Translations under genes and position numbers: made by a program
Shown here: piece by piece, positions 44,974 to 54,932 of the stretch
Numbering within the stretch: the first letter of the stretch is position 1
Layout: every line of letters starts with the position of its first letter
NCBI GenBank assembly: GCA_017437905.1
Contig: JAFRWY010000107.1
Coordinates: 1-56,301 of the forward strand
Direction: 5' to 3'
Source of the DNA: Eubacterium sp.
GTDB taxonomy: Bacteria; Bacillota; Clostridia; Lachnospirales; Lachnospiraceae
Length of the DNA: 56,301 nucleotides
The notes under the pieces: generated by a model
The model's input: only the letters and a program-made list of their open reading frames with translations
Databases searched by the model: none
Told to the model about the DNA's origin: nothing

Positions 44974-46809
44974 TTATTCCTCCCGGCCGTTGTAACGTAC
45001 GCAAAGCATGGTCAGGTCATCGAACTGCGGAGCGGTTCCCACGAATTCATTGATCGCATCTGTCAGATGTGCGATCACTTCTCTCGGATGATCCTCGGGA
45101 TGCTGATTTAAAGCTTCCAGCATACGGTCGGTTCCGAAGAGTTCATCATTTGCATTTGTGGCTTCGGCAGCACCGTCGGTATATACGAGAAGGGTTCCGC
45201 CGGGTTTCAGCTCCAGTTCGTATTCCCTGTATTTGCTCATATCCATACCGCCAAGGACAAAACCGTGGCGGTCCTTGATCAGCCGGAACTCGCCCTCCGG
45301 ATCCCGGAGAATCGGAAATTCATGTCCGGCACTGGAGGCAGTGATCTTGCCGGTGGTCCGGTCCATGATACCGAACCATGCGGTTACGAACATATCATTT
45401 TTGTTGTTTTCACAGAGCGTCTTGTTGGCCCTGGTAAGAACCGAGGCAGGCGAGGGCTCTGTTTTGCTGTATTCCTGGATCAGCAATTTGGCGATCATCA
45501 TAAAGAGAGAGGCGGGTACGCCCTTGCCGGATACATCGCCGATGACCAGACCCAGATGCGTTTCATCGATATCGAAGAAGTCATAGAGGTCGCCGCCGAC
45601 TTCCTTAGCCGGAGTCATGGTGGCATAGAGCTCATAATCCTTCTCATTCGGATAGTTTACCGGAAGCACGCCCATCTGGATACTTGAAGCCAGGGAAAGC
45701 TCTGTGGCGACACGCTCCCGTTCTCCCGTAAGCTTCGCAATCTCTGAGGTATGGCGGTCCATTTCCACGACCATATGGGATACGTCGTCTGCCAGAACAC
45801 CGAACTCATTTCGCTGTTTGATCCGGTCCATCTGTTCCACGATGGGAACGCTGTCCTTTGTTACCATATATTCTCGGACACCTTTCTGGACTTTGGCCAG
45901 GGGGCGGATCGCCGCCCGGTTGATGAAGAACAGAAGGAGCACGGAACCGGCAGCGATGGCAAGCGCGGTGATCGCTACGGTCGTGAACAGCTTGGTCATC
46001 AGTGTGGAATGGAACTCACTCCAGTCGTTGCTGAGGATAAGGACTGCCCGGACATCTCCCTCATCATTGAAGATCGGAGTGATGCAAAGATAATAATAAT
46101 TTCCGTCCTTCGGAGAGTCATACCGTTCAAACACAGTCGTTTTGGATGTCTTTACTTTCCGGATCCCGGACAGGGCATTCAGCAGTTCGCTTTCATCCGC
46201 GCCCAGATAGTTCTTCACCTGTTCAGGATCCATATCGCCGTGGATCGCTTCCGAATAATCCTTTGTATTGAAAATGCAGTGTCCCCAGTGCTCATCGCTT
46301 ACATCGATGATGGCGGCCGTTTCATTTTCCATCTGATAGGTACTGATGATCTGGTTTGTGGTGATGGTATCGTAGACGAAGATGGACAGAAGCATCTGCT
46401 GACGCCGGGTATAGTTTTCCAGCTGATCGGGATCGTATTTCGGAAGGGAAACATCCATAGACAGATCTACAACCGGGAAATCCTTTACCATTTCCGCATA
46501 GTATTCCGTATCCGGATCGATGGAAACGCTTCCGCTCTCCGGATGCCTGGCCCAGAAATCAAGGAACCAGTCCAGGTTATCCACATACTCGAAATAGTCC
46601 CTCATTTTCTCTGCCAGAGGTTTCATGAATTCCTGCTTGGCCTCAAGATAGGTCTGGGTACTTCCCCTTGTCTGGATCAGGGCTGAGACAACGATCAGAA
46701 GAGTAAAAATGATCGCAAAGATGGCGCCGACCTGGAAGAGGAGCCGAAGATCTCTATTCCGTTTTATTTTCTTTGTTTTTTCTTTCTTTATCTCTGAATC
46801 CTTGCCCAT
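44974..46809 (-). CDS. Membrane-bound HAMP-PP2C (SpoIIE/RsbU-type) serine phosphatase
   Basis: A 611-residue protein. A first helix at about 23-46, an extracellular sensor domain (50-265) and a second helix (268-292) are followed by a HAMP linker (293-345) and a SpoIIE-type PP2C domain (about 395-608). Metal-binding acids lie in EVGGDLYDFF, IGDVSGKGVPA, VYTDGAAEA and FDDLTMLC. Such phosphatases usually dephosphorylate an anti-sigma antagonist or STAS protein. No such partner is adjacent. It is the last gene of an operon with the histidine kinase (24-base gap) and LytTR regulator upstream. Confidence 0.92.
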   Translation of the reverse strand: MGKDSEIKKEKTKKIKRNRDLRLLFQVGAIFAIIFTLLIVVSALIQTRGSTQTYLEAKQEFMKPLAEKMRDYFEYVDNLDWFLDFWARHPESGSVSIDPDTEYYAEMVKDFPVVDLSMDVSLPKYDPDQLENYTRRQQMLLSIFVYDTITTNQIISTYQMENETAAIIDVSDEHWGHCIFNTKDYSEAIHGDMDPEQVKNYLGADESELLNALSGIRKVKTSKTTVFERYDSPKDGNYYYLCITPIFNDEGDVRAVLILSNDWSEFHSTLMTKLFTTVAITALAIAAGSVLLLFFINRAAIRPLAKVQKGVREYMVTKDSVPIVEQMDRIKQRNEFGVLADDVSHMVVEMDRHTSEIAKLTGERERVATELSLASSIQMGVLPVNYPNEKDYELYATMTPAKEVGGDLYDFFDIDETHLGLVIGDVSGKGVPASLFMMIAKLLIQEYSKTEPSPASVLTRANKTLCENNKNDMFVTAWFGIMDRTTGKITASSAGHEFPILRDPEGEFRLIKDRHGFVLGGMDMSKYREYELELKPGGTLLVYTDGAAEATNANDELFGTDRMLEALNQHPEDHPREVIAHLTDAINEFVGTAPQFDDLTMLCVRYNGREE

Positions 46810-46833
46810 ATGATCACCATATCCTGTAACAGC

Positions 46834-48192
46834 TTATTCTTTGGCTTCCTGGTCCGGAGGGAGCAGCGGGATCATGATATCCGTATAGAATTCGGTCCCT
46901 TCATGGTGGAAATTCGAGATACCGTCATGAAGCTCCACGATGGTAGCGATGGAACGGAGTCCGAGCCCGCTTTTCTTCTTTCTGGTTGAGAAATACAGTC
47001 CGTTGACCTGAAGCGGCTGTCCGTCAAATGAATTCACCGCCACAATATAAAACTGCCGGTTTCTTTCCACATGGGTCGTAAGACGGATATACCGATCCCC
47101 TTCTGGCTGTGCGGATGCGGCCCGGATGGCATTGTCCAGAATGTTTCCGATCATGCTGCAAAGCTCCGGGTTGTCCAGCTCCAGTCTTTTCGGGGAGGGA
47201 AGATCGATCCGGAAATCTGTCTCGACATTGTTAGCTATGGCCTGATTGCGGTAGTAGTTCAGTACGGCATTCAGTGCGCTGTTCTTGCAGAAGATCCGGA
47301 CTTCGTTCTCGGGCAGTTTTGAGATATATTCATCCAGATAGGCTTTGATCTCCGGGAGATTGCCGTCCTCTGCCAGTTGGTGAAGGCTTCGGATCGTATG
47401 TTTGAAATCGTGCCGGATCCGTGCGTTTTCTTCCATGTACCGCTGCTGTTTTTCAAATGTCTGCTCCTGCATTTCCAGCATGGATGTCCGGACACGAAGG
47501 TCCGCCAGGTTGAGCAGGCTTTTAACGATGTGGAAGAAGATGGTTCCGAGCAGAATCTCCAGAAACAGGATCATGAACTGGAGGATAAGATAAATACGGA
47601 AAACGTTATTTACGTAAAGGGTCTCATATTTCATGGGAGCCATGTAAAGATTGACGAACAGGAAGAGTCCGGAGATCGGAAGTGTGATCCACCAGATGGT
47701 GATCTCCTGCATGTGGTCGATCAGCAGACGGGCATATCGGCTCATTAAATAATAGAGGAGAAGGAAACTGATCGTACTGAGCGCGATGCTGGAGACCGCG
47801 AATTCCATACTGGAATCCAAAGCGCCTGAATCCGGGTTGCAGACAGCATCCACCGCGTAAGAAAGATTCACGGAAACGGACATGATCACGCAGATGAAAG
47901 AGAACACGGCTGCAGCCTGTGCCATGCTTGCGGTGACACAGCTCTTATAGATAAAAAAGAAAAGAATCATGATGGGAGCGATATAGAATAAAGGACGGGG
48001 TCTTACCAGACACCTGAAAAGAGCCCCGAGAGGAAGTATGACCAGGGCTGCAAGAAAGAACCGCAATACAGCCTGTTTGCGGCTGCACTTAAATTTATGC
48101 TTCATGGGAGCCATACAGAGAATTCCTGCGGGGATCACGAAGCAAAGGGATAAAGGAGTGAGAAAAAATTCCCGGATATCCATATCAGGCAT
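46834..48192 (-). CDS. Sensor histidine kinase, AgrC-like (HPK10/GHKL)
   Basis: A 452-residue kinase. The first 220 residues hold six to seven membrane helices. After a short coiled coil the phospho-acceptor is His261 in NARIRHDFKHTIRSL. The GHKL ATPase contains IGNILDNAIRAA (N box) and KKSGLGLRSIATIVELHDG (G box). This is the type that senses peptides with LytTR partners (AgrC, VirS). The regulator gene ends three bases before its start, so they are translated as a pair. No AgrB or signal-peptide gene was seen nearby, so the ligand is unknown. Confidence 0.92.
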   Translation of the reverse strand: MPDMDIREFFLTPLSLCFVIPAGILCMAPMKHKFKCSRKQAVLRFFLAALVILPLGALFRCLVRPRPLFYIAPIMILFFFIYKSCVTASMAQAAAVFSFICVIMSVSVNLSYAVDAVCNPDSGALDSSMEFAVSSIALSTISFLLLYYLMSRYARLLIDHMQEITIWWITLPISGLFLFVNLYMAPMKYETLYVNNVFRIYLILQFMILFLEILLGTIFFHIVKSLLNLADLRVRTSMLEMQEQTFEKQQRYMEENARIRHDFKHTIRSLHQLAEDGNLPEIKAYLDEYISKLPENEVRIFCKNSALNAVLNYYRNQAIANNVETDFRIDLPSPKRLELDNPELCSMIGNILDNAIRAASAQPEGDRYIRLTTHVERNRQFYIVAVNSFDGQPLQVNGLYFSTRKKKSGLGLRSIATIVELHDGISNFHHEGTEFYTDIMIPLLPPDQEAKE

Positions 48193-48194
48193 CC

Positions 48195-48926
48195 TTATTC
48201 ACGTGTATTGTTCCGGATCTTTGAGAACATGTAGTTCCGGTAGGTCTGTTCGAGTTCCTTCCGCTTCTTCACGTTATAAGGGAGGTACATGTTGTCATTC
48301 ACGATGCAGACACCGTTCCCGAATTCCGTAACATAATCCATATTTACAAGTGTTCCCCGGTTGATGAGGAGAAACCTGGTGTCTCCGCCCAGCTGTTCCT
48401 CCGCGTCCGCAAAGGTCATCCGGCTCACGTGCTCCGTCATATCCTTATCCGTGATATGCAGATAGTGTCCGTTGGAGCGGATCCCTATGATCTCGGAGAA
48501 GAGAAGACGGCATTCCAGTTTCTTATCCATAAACTCAAAGCTTTTTCCCGCCTGTGTGACCTGACGGGTGATGTCATCCATCAGTCGGTAGATCCTGTCC
48601 TGTTCCGCCGGTTTGATCACGTAATCAAAAGCATGCAAAGAAAAGGCGGACGGCATATGGTCCGTGCTGGTGGTCTGGAATACGATCAGGGCATCCGGAT
48701 CCTTCTCCCGGATCTGCCGGGCAATCTCAACCCCGTTCTCATGCTTCATATAAATATCGAGAAAAATGGTTGAATACCTGAAGGCAGCATAGGATTCAAG
48801 GAAATCCGCCGGATCCTGAAACTGTTCTATTTCTATCTCTGAATGATGATAGGCAGCATAACTCTTTAGGATCGTACTGAGTTGTTCGATATCTCTGGCA
48901 TCATCATCGACGATGGCGATATTCAT
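48195..48926 (-). CDS. LytTR-family response regulator (AgrA-like)
   Basis: A 243-residue regulator. The receiver domain (1-120) has acidic residues IVDDDA, phospho-acceptor Asp57 in IFLDIYM and the conserved Lys in DYVIKPA. The C-terminal LytTR DNA-binding domain (about 140-240) includes IIGIRSNGHYLHI and FLLINRGTLVNMDYV. LytTR proteins bind short direct repeats spaced by about two helical turns upstream of promoters. Four CGTGCCA repeats just upstream of this gene are candidate sites. GGGAGAGG precedes the start. First gene of the regulator-kinase-phosphatase operon. Confidence 0.94.
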   Translation of the reverse strand: MNIAIVDDDARDIEQLSTILKSYAAYHHSEIEIEQFQDPADFLESYAAFRYSTIFLDIYMKHENGVEIARQIREKDPDALIVFQTTSTDHMPSAFSLHAFDYVIKPAEQDRIYRLMDDITRQVTQAGKSFEFMDKKLECRLLFSEIIGIRSNGHYLHITDKDMTEHVSRMTFADAEEQLGGDTRFLLINRGTLVNMDYVTEFGNGVCIVNDNMYLPYNVKKRKELEQTYRNYMFSKIRNNTRE

Positions 48927-49002
48927 AGGCCTCTCCCGTTCTGGGTCTTTCGTTGGGGATTATGCCGTATGATGCGCGATAATCCCTGAAAAAAACGGTT
49001 TG

Positions 49003-49137
49003 ATTATACTATGAGGGTGGGAGGATGTAAACCCCATTCGTGCCAAAATGGCATCAAACGTGCCAATTTTACCTTTCGTGCCACGTTCGTGCCACATGTG
49101 GATAAGCTATTGAAATCATTTTTTTTTCGGATATAAT
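49003..49137. promoter_or_regulatory. Divergent promoters with four CGTGCCA direct repeats between them
   Basis: The minus-strand promoter for the LytTR operon is TTTACA (49026-49031), a 17-base spacer and TATAAT (49003-49008). The plus-strand promoter for the gene at 49185 is TTGAAA (49110-49115), a 16-base spacer and TATAAT (49132-49137). Between the -35 boxes, CGTGCCA occurs at 49039, 49059, 49077 and 49088 (spacing 20, 18, 11), with an inverted TGGCA at 49049 and a CCACATGTGG palindrome at 49092-49101. This is the expected place and style of LytTR regulator sites. Confidence 0.8.
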
Positions 49138-49184: not shown

Positions 49185-49568
49185 ATGGCTTTCGGATTCA
49201 AATTAAAAAAACTCGAGACATCTAAGCCATATACGATCGAAGAGCTTTTCGAAGCGATCAAGGATCATGAGTTCACAGCCGGACAACCACAGCTGACCAA
49301 GCATGGACTTACAACGATCATCACATTTCCGCCCATCGACAGAAATAATCAGATCTGGGTATCACCGGGAGGAATGAAGTCACCGTACAGCAAGTTCACG
49401 GTCATGAAGAATGAAGTGGCAGGTCTGGACAACATGGCTAAGAACATAGGACTCGGAGCAGTCACGGGCAGCTGGTCAAGAATGTCGGGAACCTTCGGAA
49501 AAAAAGCGAAGACCTCGGAGGAACTGGTAGTAACCACCTTTGAAGAAATTCAGGCACTTGGGTTATAG
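49185..49568 (+). CDS. Protein of unknown function, likely LytTR target
   Basis: A 127-residue soluble protein without signal peptide or membrane helix. It starts MAFGFKLKKLETSKPYTIEEL and contains TIITFPPIDRNNQIWVSPGG and GLDNMAKNIGLGAVTGSWSRMSG. No family was recognised. ATG 49185 follows AGGAGGAAAGAACA. An upstream TTG was rejected. It is the first gene downstream of the repeat-bearing divergent promoter, so the LytTR regulator is its likely activator. Confidence 0.8.
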   Translation: MAFGFKLKKLETSKPYTIEELFEAIKDHEFTAGQPQLTKHGLTTIITFPPIDRNNQIWVSPGGMKSPYSKFTVMKNEVAGLDNMAKNIGLGAVTGSWSRMSGTFGKKAKTSEELVVTTFEEIQALGL

Positions 49569-49648: not shown

Positions 49649-50146
49649 ATGATGAAAAAGATGAAGAAACTTGTAGTTGTAGTACTGGCAGTAGCTATGA
49701 TGACTATGTGCATGGTAGCGTGTGGCACCGTTCAGAAGGACGTAGATGGCGACTGGACAACTTCCACAATTAACGGACAGAGTCTTGAGGATTGGGCAGC
49801 ATCTACCGGCCAGACCGTAGGCGCATGCACAACCAACTGGACAGTAAAAGACGGCAAGCTCAATGCAGTAAGTGCACTTGGTAACGCAACCATGGATGTT
49901 GAGTACAAATCCAACGGATTTGAAGTTAAGGAAAACGGATCTATCGCATTCAGCGTAGCTTACAACAAGGATGCACAGACACTTTCTTACAAGGTGAATG
50001 TAGCCGGCACAGAGTATGACTACGTGATGAAGAAGGGTACAGGTACCGTAGGCGATGCAGCACCTGCTGATGGTGGCGAGGCTGCACCGGCAGAAGGTGG
50101 CGAAGAGGCACCGGCAGAAGGTGGCGAGGAAGCAGTTGAGGAGTAA
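49649..50146 (+). CDS. Predicted lipoprotein with Pro/Glu/Gly repeat tail
   Basis: A 165-residue protein. The basic start KKMKK and hydrophobic core end in a lipobox MVACG (Cys25). The folded part (DWTTSTINGQSLEDWAAS through YDYVMKKGTG) has a beta-rich pattern like small DUF4854-type lipoproteins, by eye only. The tail is made of APAEGGEE-type repeats (about residues 135-165). GGAGGTAAAGG precedes the start. It lies 80 bases after the previous gene and is probably co-expressed. Confidence 0.85.
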   Translation: MMKKMKKLVVVVLAVAMMTMCMVACGTVQKDVDGDWTTSTINGQSLEDWAASTGQTVGACTTNWTVKDGKLNAVSALGNATMDVEYKSNGFEVKENGSIAFSVAYNKDAQTLSYKVNVAGTEYDYVMKKGTGTVGDAAPADGGEAAPAEGGEEAPAEGGEEAVEE

Positions 50147-50183: not shown

Positions 50184-50222
50184 AACAGGCGTGGAGCCAG
50201 AGATGGTTCCATGCCTGTTTTT
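50184..50222 (+). terminator. Rho-independent terminator
   Basis: AACAGGCGTGGAGCC pairs with GGTTCCATGCCTGTT with two wobble pairs, followed by T5. It ends the lipoprotein transcript. Confidence 0.82.
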
Positions 50223-50311
50223 CTTTGAAACAAATGGCAGTCGGAAAGCATAGAGGCTGTCATGCTGCCCGGAATGACGGGCAGATATACCATATCTCGG
50301 GAGGCAAAGAG

Positions 50312-51052
50312 ATGGCAAATGAGGAAACAAAGGAAGTAAAAGAGGAAGTGGCAAAAACGGAAGAGACTCCGAAGAAGAAGTCTTTTATCAGTGAAGCAAA
50401 GCTGGAAATGCTGATCGCGATCTTCCTTGGACTTACTGCAGTGCTCACTGCATGGGCAACATGGATCGGATCCCTGCACGGCGGTAATCAGGCTACAAAC
50501 TATACGAAGAGTAACAATGTGGCATCAGATGCGAATTCCATGTACAACGAGGCATTTCAGAGTCTGGTACAGGATATGATGACATGGAACATGATCACCG
50601 ACTTTAAATTCGATATGGCACTGGCGGAACTGCGTGGTGATGCTACAGAGGTTGAACTGATCGATACGAAGGTTCAGCAGATCATTGATGATAACTGCAC
50701 AGAGGAATTCCAGGAGGCAATTAACTGGGCTTTTGAGCAGGAGGAGGAAGTTTCTCCGTTCATGAAGGATGGCTACATCGAGAGCTACTATGCTGAGGCA
50801 GATGCCATGTACAAGGAGTCGCAGGCACTCCTTGAAGAAGGTATGCAGGATAATAAGAATGGTGATACCTATAACCTGGTAACAGTTATTTACTCGCTGG
50901 TACTGTTCCTGCTTGGTATCATCGGTATCTTCAAGAATATCCCGAACCGGTTTGCGGTATTCGTAATCGCAGTGATCCTGCTGATCCTTGCAGTCATCTT
51001 TATGGTACGGATTCCGATGCCGACCGGCTTCAGTCTCGGAAGCTTCTTCTAG
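50312..51052 (+). CDS. Membrane protein with large central loop, unknown function
   Basis: A 246-residue protein. A charged cytoplasmic N-terminus (NEETKEVKEEVAKTEETPKKK) is followed by helix 1 (about 33-57). An acidic helical loop (58-180) contains NQATNYTKSNNVASDANSMY. Two C-terminal helices follow (about 188-208, 214-236). The pattern resembles DUF4337-like membrane proteins. ATG 50312 follows GGGAGGCAAAGAG, and the longer frame from 50225 was rejected. Function is unknown. It sits between the lipoprotein and the clostripain gene. Confidence 0.82.
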   Translation: MANEETKEVKEEVAKTEETPKKKSFISEAKLEMLIAIFLGLTAVLTAWATWIGSLHGGNQATNYTKSNNVASDANSMYNEAFQSLVQDMMTWNMITDFKFDMALAELRGDATEVELIDTKVQQIIDDNCTEEFQEAINWAFEQEEEVSPFMKDGYIESYYAEADAMYKESQALLEEGMQDNKNGDTYNLVTVIYSLVLFLLGIIGIFKNIPNRFAVFVIAVILLILAVIFMVRIPMPTGFSLGSFF

Positions 51053-53691: not shown

Positions 53692-53762
53692 TTGATTTGT
53701 TTCGTAACAGATGATACAGTGAAAAGGATGAAGGCAAAAAAGCGAACTTGTACATACAAGTT
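53692..53762 (+). promoter_or_regulatory. araR promoter and AraR operator 1
   Basis: TTGATT (53692-53697), a 17-base spacer and TACAGT (53715-53720) form the promoter. AACTTGTA-CA-TACAAGTT (53745-53762), a perfect palindrome, lies just downstream in the leader. It closely resembles the Bacillus AraR operator (ATTTGTACGTACAAAT), so AraR should repress its own gene here. Confidence 0.8.
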
Positions 53763-53771
53763 GGAGGGCTC

Positions 53772-54932
53772 ATGGAAGAGAACATAGAGACGAAATACAG
53801 CAGTATCGAGACGGAACTTAGGGATCTGGTCTTCTCCGATGCATATCAGCCGGGAGACAAGCTGCCCTCGGAGAATGCCCTTGCAAAGCAGTACGGGGTC
53901 AGCAGGCAGACGGTCCGTAAGGCACTGGAGGGGCTGGAACGAGAGGGCTATATCTACGCGGTTCACGGCAGCGGGCGGTACGTCTCCGAACGTACGCTCC
54001 ACCGGAAGCAGTCGAAGAATATCGCAGTGGTGATGACCTACCTTTCGGATTACATTTTCCCGAAGGTGATCAGCGGGATCGATCAGGTGCTTTCCGCGAA
54101 TGGTTATGACCTGATCCTGAAACATACAAACAACTCCCGGCACGGAGAGATTGCATGTCTGGAGGAGCTGATGGGGAAGGATATCGACGGGATCATCATA
54201 GAACCCAGCAAGAGCAACATGTATTGTAAGCATACGGATCTTTTTGGGCAGTTGGAAAGGTATGAGATCCCTTATGTTTTCATCCAGGGGGAGTACGAGG
54301 CCATGGCAGAGAAACCCCATGTGCTGCTGGATGATGAGAAGGGGAGCTTCCTTCTGACAAAGTATCTGATCGAAAACGGTCACCGGGAGATCTACGGCAT
54401 TTTCAAGAGTGATGACAGCCAGGGGCAGAAGCGGCACAATGGTTATGCACGTGCACTGGCCGGGGCGGGGATTCCCTATGATCCGTCCCATGTGATCTGG
54501 TTTTATACGGAGGACCGGAAGGTGCATCCTGTGACCAGTCTGCAGAATATCATCCGGAACGGGAAGAACGTGGATGCGGTGGTCTGCTACAACGACCAGA
54601 TCGCGCGGCATGTGATCCGTGCCATCCGGGAGGTGGGGAAGCATGTGCCGGAGGATATCTCCGTCACCGGATATGACAATTCAGACAGTGCGTCCATGGA
54701 CGGAAAACAGCTGACAACCGTGGTACATCCACAGGAGGAACTGGGACGGCTGGCGGCGGATATGCTCCTTCACCTGATCCGGGGAGAAGAGACCGAGCGG
54801 CGGATCGTGATCGAGCCTGTGCTGGTGGAGGGCGACACCGTACGGAAGAAGGATGCGGGAAAAAAGAAGGCGGATGCAGAGCCGGAGCAAAAACAGAGCA
54901 AAAAAACAGGGCATAAAGTCAGAAAAAAGTAG
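53772..54932 (+). CDS. araR: AraR-type GntR/LacI-hybrid repressor
   Basis: A 386-residue regulator. The N-terminal GntR winged helix is at residues 1-75 (KLPSENALAKQYGVSRQTVRKALEGLEREGYI). The LacI/GalR-type sensor domain is at residues 82-355 (IAVVMTYLSDYIFPKVISGID, VVCYNDQIARHVI, DISVTGYDNSD). This hybrid is the AraR architecture, which senses L-arabinose. Two operators of AraR type flank the gene. The C-terminus has an extra Lys-rich tail (residues 358-386, KKDAGKKKADAEPEQKQSKK) not typical of AraR. ATG 53772 follows TTGGAGGG, and a TTG upstream was rejected. Confidence 0.92.
   Translation: MEENIETKYSSIETELRDLVFSDAYQPGDKLPSENALAKQYGVSRQTVRKALEGLEREGYIYAVHGSGRYVSERTLHRKQSKNIAVVMTYLSDYIFPKVISGIDQVLSANGYDLILKHTNNSRHGEIACLEELMGKDIDGIIIEPSKSNMYCKHTDLFGQLERYEIPYVFIQGEYEAMAEKPHVLLDDEKGSFLLTKYLIENGHREIYGIFKSDDSQGQKRHNGYARALAGAGIPYDPSHVIWFYTEDRKVHPVTSLQNIIRNGKNVDAVVCYNDQIARHVIRAIREVGKHVPEDISVTGYDNSDSASMDGKQLTTVVHPQEELGRLAADMLLHLIRGEETERRIVIEPVLVEGDTVRKKDAGKKKADAEPEQKQSKKTGHKVRKK

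Follow-up and report, generated by a model that had tools for sequence, protein, structure and literature searches.

A candidate LytTR operator of fixed geometry beside an AgrA/AgrC-like two-component system in Eubacterium

Do a LytTR-type response regulator (RR), an AgrC-like histidine kinase (HK) and a PP2C phosphatase encoded one after another belong to a single circuit, and which genes are governed by the repeats at their promoter? The question is raised by positions 44974-49137 of contig JAFRWY010000107.1 of Eubacterium sp. (assembly GCA_017437905.1), whose 56,301 nucleotides were analysed as a whole and are called the window below. A preliminary description of the window had read the locus as one functional whole, in which a membrane signal would drive both LytTR-controlled transcription and serine dephosphorylation of a STAS-type partner by the phosphatase. 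From comparison with related genomes, we consider that RR and HK probably make up a LytTR two-component system that stands by itself and has an operator of its own, which would define a small regulon, and we give this reading a probability of roughly 0.78.

The repeat array between the divergent promoters

All three genes lie on the minus strand, with 2 bases between those for RR (48195-48926, 243 aa) and HK (46834-48192) and 24 bases between those for HK and the phosphatase (44974-46809), and in this layout coordinates and Pfam matches agree with the preliminary description. RR has a receiver and a LytTR domain, both above the curated Pfam cut-off (Response_reg 5e-16, LytTR 8.3e-7). HK, with seven hydrophobic segments by hydropathy, is an AgrC-like kinase of the GHKL type (HATPase_c_5, 2.4e-14); it matches NCBIfam AgrC with E 6e-9, at 35.5 bits for a cut-off of 500, and in the PDB, at E 0.001, it matches solely structure 6e52 (E 1.6e-5), a kinase module of AgrC. 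H261-D262 is invariant in 10 HK sequences, as are D57 and K105 in 12 aligned RR sequences; the latter two are the conserved phospho-acceptor Asp and Lys, whose role is known from the response regulator family. Because HK keeps its His-Asp and RR its Asp and Lys, phosphotransfer from HK to RR is expected from the families.

The 258-bp intergenic region upstream of RR holds two promoter-like sites with 11/12 matches each, one on the minus strand for RR-HK(-PP2C) (49003-49031, TTTACA-17-TATAAT) and a divergent one on the plus strand (49110-49137, TTGAAA-16-TATAAT). Both were found again as first described, together with the four copies of CGTGCCA at 49039, 49059, 49077 and 49088, which stand on one strand between the two -35 boxes. 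By itself this heptamer is nothing unusual in the window as a whole, with 7 copies where 4.94 are expected; four on one strand of the intergenic region have a Poisson probability of ~7e-10, a value computed only after the motif had been seen.

The region was compared over 11 RR loci with complete intergenic DNA, namely the window, nine relatives with RR orthologues of 58-86% identity among 61 genomes of the genus (its own included), and UBA4314, which lies outside the 61. Site 1 of the array (TTCGTGCCA, 49037-49045, plus strand, offset 0) reads GTGCCA in 10 of the 11 intergenic regions and GTGACA in the other, and site 2 (AACGTGCCA, 49057-49065, plus strand, offset 20) reads GTGCCA in 10 and GTGCCT in one. 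Site 3 (TTCGTGCCA, 49075-49083, plus strand) stands at offset 38, or 39 in genome G002, and is kept in 10/11 loci, two of these with one base changed (GTGCCA in 8/11; ATGCCA, GTGCCG and AGGACA once each). The preliminary description had named loss of the gene order or of the repeats in close relatives as grounds for giving up its reading. By this measure the result is divided: the repeats at 0 and 20 recur in 11/11 loci, the three-gene order in only one relative, G036. An extra copy at offset 49 (TTCGTGCCA, 49086-49094, plus strand) is strong, among the RR loci, solely in the window and G036. A degenerate fourth site at offset 58 (49095-49103, plus strand), missing from the first list of repeats, adjoins the divergent -35. 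Leaving G036 aside, the nine other loci compared with the window share 61-76% identity with it over the 51-bp array stretch and 47-56% over the remaining intergenic DNA; G036, at 78% and 75%, is too close to be informative.

Counting G034, an eleventh genome with a truncated RR frame, and six arrays displaced from RR (both described below), 18 arrays were available. Scored by a matrix at offsets -25 to +84 with site 1 as anchor, the highest means fell at 20, 0, 38, 58 and 49 (17.4, 17.2, 7.5, -2.0 and -5.2). Sites 0/20/38 of the 11 loci had gone into the matrix, and their peaks are in part a product of its construction; those at 58 and 49 are not. Anchoring on the -10 left the order unchanged (8.7, 7.8, 4.9, -4.4 and -7.5; all-offset mean -19.5, standard deviation 6.5). 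In our reading the array consists of two pairs, each of period 20, a strong distal one (0/20) and a weak proximal one (38/58), the 58 site ranking fourth over the 18 arrays; the array of G018:C4 has a weaker copy at offset 48.

Spacing is strict towards the divergent promoter and less so, by about one helical turn, towards RR. In 18/18 arrays TA[ATG]AAT begins 92-94 bp from the G of site 1 (92 bp in the window); the hexamer and the range 91-94 were picked after inspection, and in 2000 mononucleotide shuffles of the stretch 0.22 of the 18 fitted on average and never more than 3. G034 has two overlapping triplets, of which the second alone fits and served as anchor (the first gives 130). Towards RR's own -10, the 11 loci fall into two classes, 35-36 or 42-45 bp (another hexamer was matched in UBA4314).

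Recurrence of the array with the regulator and its probable target genes

The divergent promoter heads a plus-strand gene group that was absent from the earlier discussion. Its first gene, orf127 (49185-49568), encodes a small soluble protein of no recognised family, with no Pfam match to E 0.01 and no NCBIfam match to E 0.05. It is followed by lipo165 (49649-50146), a lipoprotein with an acidic tail free of Lys and Arg, found in 11/61 genomes at E 1e-6, 10 of which have RR or its stub; by mem250 (50300-51052), a membrane protein with three hydrophobic segments by hydropathy (16/61 genomes at E 1e-15); and by a C11 (clostripain-family) peptidase, C11 (51149-53584; Peptidase_C11 3.2e-41), a probable lipoprotein. 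The gene divergent from RR is orf127 in 8/11 loci and lipo165 in 3/11, and HK follows RR in 9/11, the exceptions being G018 and G035. Common to the loci, then, are RR, in most cases HK, and divergent genes from the set orf127, lipo165, mem250 and C11. A pair in G081 (RR 39%, HK 35%) was considered as a further member and rejected, as neither its intergenic region nor the wider locus has an array (best score 12.6).

Arrays also stand away from RR in genomes that have it. Pattern search found them in G035 before lipo165-mem250 and before lipo165-C11, and in G018:C4 before a protein with a LURP-one-related (LOR) domain (L162, 4984-5898; PF04525 5e-8). The matrix added G011:C2 before mem250 (29.7) and G011:C3 and G018:C62 before lipo165-C11 (29.1 and 37.4); the window, shuffled 20 times, gave at most 13.1. 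Profile comparison gave a probability of 2.6% that orf127 is related to the LOR target, and this relationship was rejected. Since the first two repeats are present in 11/11 loci and displaced targets in these genomes carry arrays too, RR very probably acts on the repeats.

The pattern TCGTGCCAN{12,15}GTGCC gave 22 matches in 12/61 genomes (7 in 6 for its reversed control): all 10 with a full RR, G034 and, as the single match in an RR-negative genome, G007, that is 1/50 of the others. The RR frame of G034 matches over ~45 residues, after which it runs into unrelated sequence, 188 bp short of the contig end; this stub (L159 1-323, G034:C14) is a broken gene or a bad assembly, and the double array beside it looks intact. 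At homologues of mem250, lipo165 or orf127 in RR-negative genomes, arrays were found at 0/8 loci (three in G037, one each in G009, G051, G013, G054 and G057), with scores of at most 5.5.

Several observations weigh against an autonomous system with its own operator. Fisher's test for pattern and RR (2.9e-11 with G034 positive, ~7e-10 by hand with G034 negative) ignores kinship among related genomes and overstates independence. A looser first pattern was unspecific, with 19 matches in 13/61 genomes versus 32 in 16 for its reversed control. Site 3 is lost (AGGACA) in the RR locus of G035, and the window's own +58 site is degenerate, with a score of -7.0. G034 retains its array though its RR frame is broken, and G018 and G035 (85% and 97% complete) have RR and arrays with no HK orthologue at E 1e-40; a different kinase may serve there, or the HK gene may be missing from the assembly. 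The lipo165 copies beside PP2C genes in G002 and G010 have no array, and the lipo165 locus of G019:C6 scores 15.4 with one good site. In RR-positive genomes, 3/8 testable lipo165 or mem250 loci away from RR lack a good array, and the contrast of 5/8 with the 0/8 above gives just p 0.026. As they begin at the edge of a contig, clusters in G024 and G060 allow no verdict on arrays.

The looser pattern also misses G011, and its matches in G015, G051, G055, G000:C74 and G036:C41 and two of three in G060 were discarded by eye as lacking array context.

The phosphatase beside the kinase gene

The third minus-strand gene encodes a SpoIIE/RsbU-type PP2C phosphatase with a full-length SpoIIE catalytic domain (Pfam, 1.6e-50) and a two-transmembrane sensor half, predicted to form an extracellular region of its own. 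The HAMP domain once assigned to it was not recovered, no HAMP family being listed even at E up to 1; beyond SpoIIE there are weak matches to dCache_1 (0.02), DUF948 (0.003) and PAS-type domains, plus chance-level ones.

That the phosphatase is an integral arm, so that one signal would feed both transcription and dephosphorylation, appears unlikely to us. The 24-bp gap, with no terminator-like site listed between the HK and PP2C genes, speaks for it, as does the order kept in G036, where the gap is 51 bp. Candidate partners exist as well: the search for STAS and anti-sigma genes elsewhere found 7 STAS and 8 HATPase_c_2 matches (3/8 over cut-off) in the genome, all on contigs other than the window's, and none beside the phosphatase gene. 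Looser links are a PP2C gene following a lipo165 paralogue in G002 and G010, and the RR-negative G057 (L203, G057:C1, 4590-12193), where four grouped PP2C matches stand opposite an orf127 homologue (40%), which hints that orf127 proteins may be tied to such phosphatases. Against this stands the distribution of the gene. It directly follows HK in 2/11 RR loci, the window and G036, which are sisters in the RR tree (support 100/99). Close orthologues lie at other places in G019, G010, G035, G002, G037, G018 and G011, and these seven loci (6-14 kb each) have no array, with a best matrix score of 8.0; G037 has the phosphatase (59%) and no RR above 31%. PP2C-like matches at E 1e-60 or better occur in 45/61 genomes, and with 9 in this genome partners need not be specific.

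On synteny, the scattered orthologues and the array-free loci, the phosphatase was rejected as a conserved third component. As it is adjacent in two sister genomes among the 11 loci, has a predicted extracellular region of its own and has array-free orthologue loci, its place as an integral arm of the circuit is not supported, and it is probably a local addition to RR-HK in this lineage. The one-circuit proposal is supported in part, for the AgrA/AgrC-like pair, whose regulator very probably acts on the repeats, and not for the phosphatase arm. A single relocation behind HK is the simplest history by synteny, without support from the tree of 15 PP2C proteins, whose deciding branches are not strong: the copies of the window, G019 and G036 group together (85/84), and inside this group G036 pairs with G019 (81/81) and leaves the window apart, so that the label 'adjacent' takes two changes, one sufficing in just 2% of 200 bootstrap trees.

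A separate observation concerns the lipo165 copies beside PP2C genes in G002 and G010 (L179, L183), which by eye have a common upstream block, CGGCAG.TTTACCTAAGTTCA.GAAATTAGTTGATTTTTG, perhaps the site of a second regulator.

Proposed regulation, gene products and related systems

The genes, the repeats, their fixed geometry, their co-occurrence with RR and the displaced arrays are observed; the binding, direction of regulation and co-transcription that we infer would run as follows. HK, going by its family, would sense a membrane signal and phosphorylate RR, whose dimers would bind the two tandem direct-repeat pairs, strongly at 0/20 and weakly at 38/58. The distal pair, near RR's own promoter, probably sets autoregulation; the proximal pair lies against the divergent -35, and its filling would recruit RNA polymerase to orf127-lipo165(-mem250-C11). 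The phosphatase gene is probably co-transcribed with that of HK, and the amount of phosphatase, not its sensing, would follow the circuit. VirR, which figures in the comparisons below, is of LytTR type.

At the divergent operon RR most likely acts as an activator, since the conserved sites all lie before the -35 and do not reach it. Repression, which we hold to be improbable, has a precedent in CoxC, a LytTR protein with three repeats that represses (PMC11347149). CoxC sites, however, overlap the -35, whereas the conserved part of the array here stops short of it on the upstream side, an arrangement found with most activators of the family (PMC11347149). The fixed distance from array to target -10 likewise argues for activation, as VirR boxes in Clostridium perfringens keep one position and phase relative to the promoter (PMC2838878).

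Somewhat less probable still is that the array is the operator of another regulator common to these genomes, RR being merely one of its target genes. Arrays do stay where no HK orthologue was found (G018, G035) and where RR is broken or misassembled (G034), and inverted TGGCA elements close to site 1 could suit a different dimer. The stricter pattern nevertheless tracks RR (10/10 full RR, the G034 stub, 1/50 others), and no array was found at the eight loci with target homologues in RR-negative genomes. The binding sites of LytTR regulators are direct repeats of 9 bp, separated by ~11-13 bp and often ~10 bp ahead of the -35, and through such repeats HdrR of S. mutans switches on the operon that encodes it (PMC6193735). 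The repeats here, of ~9 bp with a period of 20 (9 + 11) and upstream of the target -35, have this form, and their length, period and TTCnnGC-like motif agree with published LytTR operators (PMC6193735, PMC11347149). The product of orf127 was rejected as the array-binding factor, as arrays persist in G002, G010, UBA4314 and G034, where lipo165 faces RR; orf127 is not listed for G002, G010 and G034 in the 61-genome search.

The system proposed here, with RR acting on its own array, has relatives among known ones, and the array unites features of the LytTR, RcoM1/CoxC and VirR operators. VirR/VirS of C. perfringens is also a two-component system with paired direct repeats just upstream of the -35 at a constant promoter position; VirR boxes form one pair with 7-8 nt between, while here there are two pairs of period 20 with another motif, a divergent layout and other targets (PMC2838878). 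RcoM1 and CoxC have three direct repeats, TTCNNGCA / TTNNNGCN, at an interval of 18-21 bp for CoxC, and by eye the array's TTCGTGCC agrees with TTNNNGCN, and with TTCNNGCA except for the final base (PMC11347149). They differ in serving CO metabolism in aerobic bacteria and, for CoxC, in a membrane MHYT sensor within the same protein (PMC11347149); here there are a two-component RR and a weak fourth site. The agr P2-P3 region of Staphylococcus aureus has in common with this locus a LytTR regulator and divergent promoters, there both under AgrA (PMC3861533), and probably the AgrC-like kinase module. Unlike agr, the divergent product here is a protein operon and not RNAIII, and AgrB (PF04647) has no match in the genome, by a search whose sensitivity was weakly controlled (of 14 control genomes only C. 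glutamicum matched, below cut-off). The phosphatase resembles RsbU/SpoIIE-type membrane phosphatases in its full-length SpoIIE domain, but no HAMP is listed and it is one of 9 such matches in its own genome.

The lipoprotein lipo165, the lipoprotein-like C11 protease, the three-segment mem250 and the soluble orf127 suggest that the regulon serves an envelope or extracellular-protein task. A strong terminator-like hairpin of 16 pairs (50184-50219, plus strand) lies between lipo165 and mem250, and similar ones, by eye, follow lipo165 copies in G034 and G035; lipo165 may therefore be expressed at a higher level than mem250 and C11. The C-terminal tail of lipo165 runs for 33-53 residues without Lys or Arg (14 proteins read, 18 loci tried) and starts right after the Lys of a conserved Lys-Gly in 13/14, G019:C6 having one further Lys. 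Since clostripain-type enzymes cut after Arg or Lys, the tail may be a product of the co-regulated C11 protease. Very doubtful is a further step, in which RR would turn on lipo165 and C11 together, C11 would cut lipo165 at this Lys and HK would sense the freed tail or the stump; if true, this self-reporting protease circuit would be an agr-like loop with a lipoprotein and a clostripain-type protease replacing AgrD and AgrB.

Beyond C11, the window encodes a GntR-type helix-turn-helix fused to a LacI-type sugar-binding domain (53748-54932, plus strand), a layout that we take to be AraR-like, with a transaldolase-family gene next.

Among the papers listed from the open-access literature, judged partly by title, we found no description of this system, whether as a LytTR regulator with a C11 peptidase or as a LytTR-PP2C operon. 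Its parts are of known kinds; the four-site arrangement and the targets look like a new variation on them. The locus also illustrates that a reading from a single genome can mistake a lineage-specific neighbour, here the phosphatase, for part of a circuit. Through a rule at the level of sequence, two repeat pairs with the -10 at 92-94 bp, likely targets can be named for a two-component system of uncultured bacteria that is itself uncharacterised, and the regulon thereby becomes testable without knowing the signal.

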